Shown one piece after another: positions 15,311 through 16,899 of a stretch of 54,019 nucleotides of DNA. The translations under genes and the position numbers were made by a program. Position 1 is the stretch's first letter, and the number at the start of each line of letters is the position of its first letter. The notes under the pieces are model-generated. The model worked only from the letters and a program-made list of their open reading frames with translations. It was not told the DNA's origin and searched no databases. The stretch is from positions 1-54,019 of the forward strand of contig JAJRWR010000009.1 in the NCBI GenBank assembly GCA_024276695.1, in the 5' to 3' direction. Source of the stretch: an archaeon. Lineage in GTDB: Archaea > Thermoproteota > Nitrososphaeria > Nitrososphaerales > Nitrosopumilaceae.

Positions 15311-16402
15311 GTGATTAAAAGTTCGGATATCAAAAAAATTGTTAATGATTATTCTGATGTAAAAATAGGCGTTCTAGGTAGTCACTCAGCACTGGAAATA
15401 ATGGATGGAGCAAAAGATGAAGATTTTCAGACCAGGGTTTTCTGTCAAAAAGGACGGGAGAAACCATATCAGAGATTTGGACGTATCGCAGATGAAATTA
15501 TAATTTTAGATAAATTCAAAGATATGGCAATAGCCAAATATCAAAAAGAGTTACGGAATTCAAACACAATCATAGTCCCCCACAGATCACTTACAGCATA
15601 TCTAGGATACAAGACAATTGAGAATTCATTCAAAGTGCCAATTTTTGGAAACAGAAAATTGTTTCAAGCAGAAGAAAGAACGGCAAAGAAAGGGCAATAC
15701 TATCTTTTAGAAAAAGCCAGAATAAAATATCCAAAATTATTCAAAGATCCTAAACGAATCAATAAACCATGCATTGTTAAAGTTCAAGAAAAAAAGAGGC
15801 CATTGGAAAGAGCTTTCTTCACAGCTACATCTTACAAAGATTATTTACAAAAATCAGAGGAGAAAATTAAACAAGGGGTAATTGCAAGAAAAGATCTTCA
15901 AAAAGCAAGCATTGAAGAATTGGCAATTGGAACATATATGAATTTCAATTTCTTCCACACACCAATTTCAGACCAAGTTGATTTTATTGGAATTGAGAGA
16001 AGATTGCAAACTAACATTCATGATTACAATGCACTTCCAGCAAGAGAGCAGTTGGAAATGGATATCGACTTACAAAACATAGAAGTAGGACATACTCCTG
16101 CAAGTATCAGAGAATCACTACTTGAAAAAGTGCTCAAAATGGGAGACAAATTTGTGGCAGCAGTCAAAAAAGAATATGCACCTGGAATCATAGGACCGTT
16201 TTCATTGCAGAGTGTAATTACAAAAGATTTAGAATTAATTGTGTATGATGTATCATTAAGAGTTCCAGGCAACCCTATTGTAGCAACAACTAGCCCTTAC
16301 ACAAAATATCAATATGGAGAAACATTTGGGGTTGGCAGAAGGATTGCTATAGAAATTAAACGTGCTCAAGAAGAAGGTAGTTTAGATGAAGTCGTTACTT
16401 GA
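15311..16402 (+). CDS. purP: FAICAR synthetase (formate-AICAR ligase) PurP
   Basis: 363 residues, an ATP-grasp enzyme found in archaea that uses free formate and ATP to formylate AICAR, replacing the folate-dependent PurH step. The GSHSALEIMDGAKDEDFQT opening, IVPHRSLTAYLGYK, FGNRKLFQAEER, YMNFNFFHTPI, FIGIERRLQ and VYDVSLRVPGNP follow the family. The start is GTG at 15311; the ATG two bases earlier is out of frame and stops at once. It stands apart from the purS-purC block, as single purine genes often do in archaea. Confidence 0.96.
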   Translation: MIKSSDIKKIVNDYSDVKIGVLGSHSALEIMDGAKDEDFQTRVFCQKGREKPYQRFGRIADEIIILDKFKDMAIAKYQKELRNSNTIIVPHRSLTAYLGYKTIENSFKVPIFGNRKLFQAEERTAKKGQYYLLEKARIKYPKLFKDPKRINKPCIVKVQEKKRPLERAFFTATSYKDYLQKSEEKIKQGVIARKDLQKASIEELAIGTYMNFNFFHTPISDQVDFIGIERRLQTNIHDYNALPAREQLEMDIDLQNIEVGHTPASIRESLLEKVLKMGDKFVAAVKKEYAPGIIGPFSLQSVITKDLELIVYDVSLRVPGNPIVATTSPYTKYQYGETFGVGRRIAIEIKRAQEEGSLDEVVT

Positions 16403-16463
16403 GCAAGATACTCAAAATTAATAATATTCATACATGAAATTACAACATTTCAAGAAAATAAAA

Positions 16464-16569
16464 GGCGCAAACCCCTAACTGCAGAACTCTGAGAGATTTC
16501 CTCTCGCGGTCAAACGTCTAAACGCTTGATTGCCTTTTTCGTTCTGCGGGGCAGCGCAACCTAATCGCC
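16464..16569. ncRNA. GC-rich structured RNA candidate
   Basis: A GC-rich island of about 106 bases in AT-rich spacer. Nested arms: GCGC (16465-16468) with GCGC (16554-16557), CCCC (16472-16475) with GGGG (16548-16551), GCAGAAC (16481-16487) with GTTCTGC (16541-16547). Inside are two hairpins: GAGAG with CTCTC, and GCGGTCAAACG with CGCTTGATTGC (wobbles allowed). Strand is open: on the minus strand a TTATAATA box sits about 25-33 bases upstream and CCTTTTATTTTC follows the 3' end; on the plus strand AATAATATTC lies about 35 bases upstream but there is no clear stop. It does not match tRNA, 5S rRNA, SRP or RNase P RNA as I know them. Confidence 0.65.
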
Positions 16570-16758
16570 AGATTCTATAACTAACGACATCAATTATTAT
16601 AAGATAAATAACTATTTAAGATTTAGTATAAGTTATTTCAATAAATATAAGAAAATATTGAAAATTATATTCCAGTATACAGGATTGCCTAATAAGGATC
16701 AAAAGAATATCATAAAAAGAAAAAACATGTCATGTATTAATACAAAAATCAGATATTT

Positions 16759-16899
16759 ATGCCAAAAAGAACATCAATTTTTATCGATGACGATTTAGAC
16801 AAAAAAATCAGAGAGTATCAAGCAAAGATCATGAAAAAAACAAATTCATCATACAGTTATTCAAAAGCAGTAAATGACTTGGTAAGAAAAGCACTCTGA
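16759..16899 (+). CDS. Ribbon-helix-helix (CopG-like) protein
   Basis: 46 residues, MPKRTSIFIDDDLDKKIREY then SYSYSKAVNDLVRKAL: strand-helix-helix as in CopG/Arc DNA-binding dimers. Similar in plan to the protein encoded at 12251-12406. The TATA-like spacer upstream is AT-rich, and a long inverted repeat starts 41 bases after its stop, possibly its target or terminator. Confidence 0.7.
   Translation: MPKRTSIFIDDDLDKKIREYQAKIMKKTNSSYSYSKAVNDLVRKAL

Follow-up and report, generated by a model that had tools for sequence, protein, structure and literature searches.

What does the GC-rich island at 16464–16569 of this archaeal DNA encode, and from which strand? The window, i.e., the whole stretch of 54,019 nucleotides that was analysed, had been described in an earlier note, which took the island for a structured RNA without a known family: an interrupted long stem around two internal hairpins, with promoter-like and T-rich signals on the minus strand. 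The island is real, with 46% GC in 16450–16599 against approximately 20–37% in the surroundings, and it folds strongly. The segment 16455–16580 gave z = -4.0 on the plus strand and z = -2.9 on the minus strand, and the minus strand read from the predicted start (16590–16456) folded at -48.5 kcal/mol, z = -3.7 relative to dinucleotide shuffles. The proposed shape is that of the predicted fold and is also supported by evolution, and both minus-strand signals could be located, a TATA box at 16620–16613 and a U-run at 16463–16455. The limits held for the island itself but not for the 5' end of the gene, the start of which lies approximately 21 nt further upstream. The features that we assign to the locus are:

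16455–16590, minus: whole predicted RNA of approximately 136 nt, conserved from its ATG through the U-run (models R1 and R2, see below)
16613–16620, minus: TATA box, CTTAAATA, from the sequence; it begins 30 nt before the A of the ATG
16561–16590, minus: nine-codon ORF, ATG TCG TTA GTT ATA GAA TCT GGC GAT TAG (MSLVIESGD), from ORF conservation
16565–16587, minus: 5' hairpin inside the ORF, UCGUUAG (16587–16581) pairing with CUGGCGA (16571–16565), from covariation
16558–16560, minus: spacer of 3 nt that separates the stop codon from the main stem; 166 of 177 copies have a spacer of 3 or 4 nt
16541–16557, minus: 5' arm of the main stem, GCGC-UG-CCCC-GCAGAAC, from predicted fold and covariation
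16510–16529, minus: hairpin 1, UCAAGCGU UUAG ACGUUUGA, variable in sequence with strong covariation
16491–16505, minus: hairpin 2, GAGAG GAAAU CUCUC, the most conserved sequence in the alignment
16465–16487, minus: 3' arm of the main stem, GUUCUGC...GGGG...GCGC, from predicted fold and covariation
16455–16463, minus: U-run UUUUAUUUU, a likely transcription terminator, from the sequence; T-rich in most copies
15311–16402, plus: convergent gene for a DUF1246/DUF1297 protein, outside the RNA (Pfam PF06849, PF06973)

The island does not correspond to any RNA class that we searched for. With Rfam 15, no family other than tRNA reached its gathering score in the window, and the remaining hits up to E = 10 were at chance level. 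ARAGORN reported a single tRNA in the window, tRNA-Asn at 580–655, well away from the island, and the SRP and RNase P RNAs are encoded elsewhere in the genome (G000:C1:881-1192 and G000:C37:44261-44539, respectively), so that tRNA, SRP RNA, RNase P RNA and the known families in general could be set aside. No Rfam snoRNA passed the cut-off, and motifs of C/D or H/ACA guide sRNAs were sought by eye only. A mobile or viral element was likewise rejected, because searches of viral contigs, phages and plasmids gave no match. By eye, the 3' arm GGAUCACGCC of some relatives resembles the tail of 16S rRNA, and GAGAGG resembles a Shine-Dalgarno or sarcin-ricin sequence; both ideas were dropped because the bases covary or vary, and no known motif for binding of the ribosome or of a factor was identified. 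In the open literature we found no description of the RNA family; the transcript may be listed, without an analysis of this kind, in subscription papers on transcriptomes of Nitrosopumilus. The RNA in a Red Sea metatranscriptome paper is a different, euryarchaeal one (PMC5069720).

Homologues were collected with a covariance model built from 48 copies (alignment A1, model R1) and with a wider model (A2, R2), and the compensatory changes expected of a structured RNA are plentiful among them, decisively so. In A2, both partners of a pair have changed in at least one sequence for 30 of the 36 pairs, including double changes in six of seven pairs of the 5' hairpin and both-side changes in all seven modelled pairs of hairpin 1. 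There are 205 double-change cells versus 53 in shuffles, and the covariation score is 0.391 versus 0.169 ± 0.008 in shuffles, falling below 0.1 when the partner is slid by 1–3 columns. A2 was fitted to a model of the same structure, and its counts lean towards that structure; an independent MAFFT alignment, A1, nonetheless exceeded 500 of 500 shuffles in percent paired, double-change cells and score. The loop of hairpin 2 is mostly G-N-A-A-U in the alignment. As for the strand, G-U is commoner than A-C at paired sites (85:25 and 75:39), which points to the minus strand as the RNA, and a plus-strand RNA is ruled out by these counts together with the promoter, the U-run and the ORF. A structured RNA family, and the strand assigned to it, are thus well supported by the comparison of the copies, as the earlier note had supposed; homologues share the minus-strand promoter and terminator. 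That description was incomplete: the 5' end, the paralogues and the nine-codon ORF had all escaped it, and with this conserved ORF the RNA is more than simply a non-coding one.

How widely does the RNA occur? A blastn search of relatives was positive in 35 of 61 genomes, all of them at that sensitivity from the window's genus and mostly with two copies, while in a class-wide sample searched with the covariance model 202 of 221 genomes of the window's archaeal family were positive. At E ≤ 0.01 none of the 179 genomes of other families in this sample had a copy, and a sensitive search of 23 other-family genomes gave only noise-level matches with E above 1. Within the window's family there were genera without a match, including the small g35 genomes. 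Among the genomes searched, this is an undescribed RNA family confined, as far as the models detect it, to the window's archaeal family, with named carriers including Nitrosopumilus, Nitrosarchaeum and Nitrosomaritimum records. Three contigs carry other labels: a Nitrosopumilus-type copy lies on a contig labelled Hyphomicrobiales bacterium (JABSRY010000148.1), which is probably mis-binned because a Nitrosopumilus MAG exists from the same study, and the label Nitrososphaeraceae on two others (L215, L230) may also be wrong. Genomes usually have one to four copies, and one MAG has up to six. The window genome has three, namely the island (copy A), copy B (G000:C3:16697-16829) and copy C (G000:C11:8913-9036), and in one genus two tandem same-strand copies lie approximately 190 nt apart (L085:1195-1621, G275). 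In the group of sequences that we call class C (L171-L184) the internal hairpins are quite different, GAGUGAGGAGAAUGCUUUUCACUC.

The TATA box is conserved as (C/T)TTAAATA in most copies, and the conserved block mostly opens with RATG. In 134 of the 160 copies with the box located, it stands 30 nt before the start codon; our finder placed it wrongly in 18 of 178 copies, and 17 of those 18 still have the ORF. A spacing of 30 nt is that expected for archaeal transcription starting at the ATG, so that a leaderless transcript fits, i.e., an RNA gene presumably transcribed from the minus strand with its first nucleotide at the ATG, transcription itself being inferred.

The ORF is the most regular property of the family. 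One of 8–10 codons is found in 177 of 178 non-identical copies (nine codons in 165, eight in 10, ten in 2), the sole exception being L200, a divergent copy from a 77%-complete genome. The gap between stop codon and stem is 3 nt in 74 copies, 4 nt in 92, 5 nt in 8 and 0–2 nt in 3. ORFs were sought near the stem, which builds in some regularity; the shuffled control limits this effect, an ATG nine-codon ORF being found at the same place in 0.9% of dinucleotide shuffles. All three stop codons are used (TAA 97, TAG 51, TGA 29), and in a tree built from the structured part we count at least 36 changes of the stop, none of them to a sense codon. The start codon has changed seven times, only to GTG or TTG, and in four copies with ACA or GCT in place of ATG, the codon that follows (TCG in relatives) is TTG or GTG. 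FastTree was applied to short sequences, and the counts of changes are therefore approximate; the conclusion does not depend closely on them.

It could be argued that the RNA is purely non-coding and that the 5' hairpin and the promoter give rise to the ORF incidentally. In classes A and B the ORF indeed coincides with a covarying hairpin, and there the two are confoundable. Class C separates them: it lacks the 5' hairpin, its ORF hardly folds (-1.2 versus -6.3 kcal/mol) and yet is kept, with eight or nine codons and an unchanged gap. A by-product would also not be expected to have exactly nine codons nearly always, to deviate only by whole codons and to exchange its stops with one another alone, and we consider this explanation very unlikely. 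Selection for an ORF of fixed length is well supported by these comparisons, and it appears, again from comparison alone, that translation is what is selected.

Such clear selection for the ORF might instead mean that the nonapeptide itself is functional, as in a dual-function sRNA or a micropeptide gene. The peptides argue otherwise. There are 112 different ones among the copies, e.g., MSLVIESGD in the window, MSKDIIAID in copy B, MQNHVNYNE in copy C and MRKDVNPNK in another genus, with no motif common to the classes, and changes in codons 2–9 are about equal at positions 1, 2 and 3 (161, 188 and 148), without an excess at the third. Given this variety and this evenness, the peptide sequence is under no selection visible in our alignments; the substitution pattern rules out a functional peptide as far as we can judge, leaving it only a very slim chance.

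The short ORF, the stem and the U-run also recall the anatomy of leader-peptide attenuators of the trp type or the mgtL/corL type, in which a short ORF is followed by a stem and a terminator, and by analogy alternative structures and the terminator would govern a downstream gene. In one genus, g22, a copy does lie 64–100 nt upstream of a same-strand gene for a CorA Mg2+ transporter (L090, L091, L094, L101, L102, L104). In 137 of 156 copies the next downstream gene runs in the opposite direction; these are largely the same few ancestral loci, and orientation is in itself weak evidence. The same-strand neighbours differ between loci, none of them being constant, and it is this that argues against an attenuator or a riboswitch of a fixed gene. 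At copy A the convergent DUF1246/DUF1297 neighbour is presumably a purP-type FAICAR synthetase, at copy B the neighbour is a gene for a small, probably secreted protein without a Pfam match, class C copies are flanked in Nitrosopumilus and relatives by an aroA-like gene on one side and an aroC-like gene on the other (named from sequence), and other loci are different still. The 3' end of copy B abuts the end of its convergent neighbour or overlaps it by approximately 2 nt (L031:4250-4699 and relatives), an arrangement that many genera retain. In the window, a 46-aa ORF with a ribbon-helix-helix look and no Pfam hit lies upstream of the RNA gene, at 16759–16899 on the plus strand. The directly following stem and terminator are thus shared with attenuators, but our RNA is stand-alone and multicopy, and in its unconserved peptide no run of sensing codons is maintained; attenuation, largely refuted by the gene context, is the explanation to which we give the least credence.

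What would a free peptide sequence of fixed length be for? The fixed-length ORF and the adjoining conserved fold suggest an RNA built for receiving a ribosome, in the absence of transcript, ribosome-profiling or knock-out data. Because the ORF is conserved, physical association with ribosomes is likely, though inferred. Our tentative preference is for a ribosome-associated regulatory RNA, stand-alone and multicopy, that captures or holds ribosomes, or reports on them, at termination or recycling; transcription, translation, geometry and role are all inferred here. In the proposed sequence of events, a ribosome would start at the 5' ATG, read nine codons and terminate. With the stop codon in the A site it would stand flush against an unmelted stem, and the ORF of 30 nt would leave space for approximately one ribosome. 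This would leave the structured domain (the long stem, the two hairpins and the conserved GAGAGGNAAUCUCUC element) exposed on the side of the ribosome where mRNA enters, and there it may contact the ribosome or a factor. In the bacterial ribosome the helicase site lies approximately 11 nt beyond the first base of the P-site codon; if this distance is valid here, the stem starts just where unwinding would begin. The geometry of the flush ribosome rests on such bacterial distances. A more specific version, which we regard as possible at best, is that of a new kind of stand-alone ribosome-docking RNA, whose free-sequence minigene parks one ribosome at the fold and thereby senses or controls termination, recycling or ribosome availability.

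A less exotic explanation is that translation serves stability only: the RNA would be a conventional structured sRNA in which the ribosome on the ORF shields the 5' end or halts before the fold. A fixed length, a stop just ahead of the stem and an unconserved peptide would all be accommodated, and several copies with diverged internal hairpins are as seen in RNAs that act by pairing or by protein binding. Translation that is merely tolerated would, however, allow loss of the ATG; the copies instead retain it or have GTG or TTG in its place, and no targets of such an sRNA have been identified. We rate this as somewhat improbable; between a plain sRNA and a ribosome-associated regulatory RNA we prefer the latter, with a solely protective role of translation close behind.

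Known systems share parts of this design. In SgrS/SgrT, a dual-function sRNA, an ORF and a structured part also lie on one RNA, but there the peptide is functional and conserved, whereas in the RNA described here only its length is. The bacterial tmRNA is likewise structured, meets the ribosome and has a short ORF that finishes near a hairpin; it has a tRNA-like domain and its ORF has no start codon, unlike our RNA, which has no tRNA-like domain by ARAGORN or Rfam and whose ORF opens with ATG, GTG or TTG. Nearest in idea are small RNAs of the haloarchaeon Haloferax volcanii that are proposed to act on or with the ribosome: the ribosome-associated rancRNA_s194 (PMC6104027) and untranslated sRNAs with ribosome occupancy, many of them without detectable protein (PMC12482152). 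There is no homology to these and no shared sequence or structure is known to us, and a conserved leaderless nine-codon ORF is not described in the parts of those two papers that we could consult (PMC6104027, PMC12482152).

In summary, the RNA is present in nearly all searched genomes of the window's family, usually in several copies, yet no known family matched it. These are ammonia-oxidising archaea, and Nitrosopumilus-type archaea are among the most abundant marine cells. In a stand-alone structured RNA, the apparent conservation of translation without that of the peptide points to a use of the ribosome for which we know of no parallel in other families. It is also of interest for leaderless translation in archaea, which is still a matter of debate.
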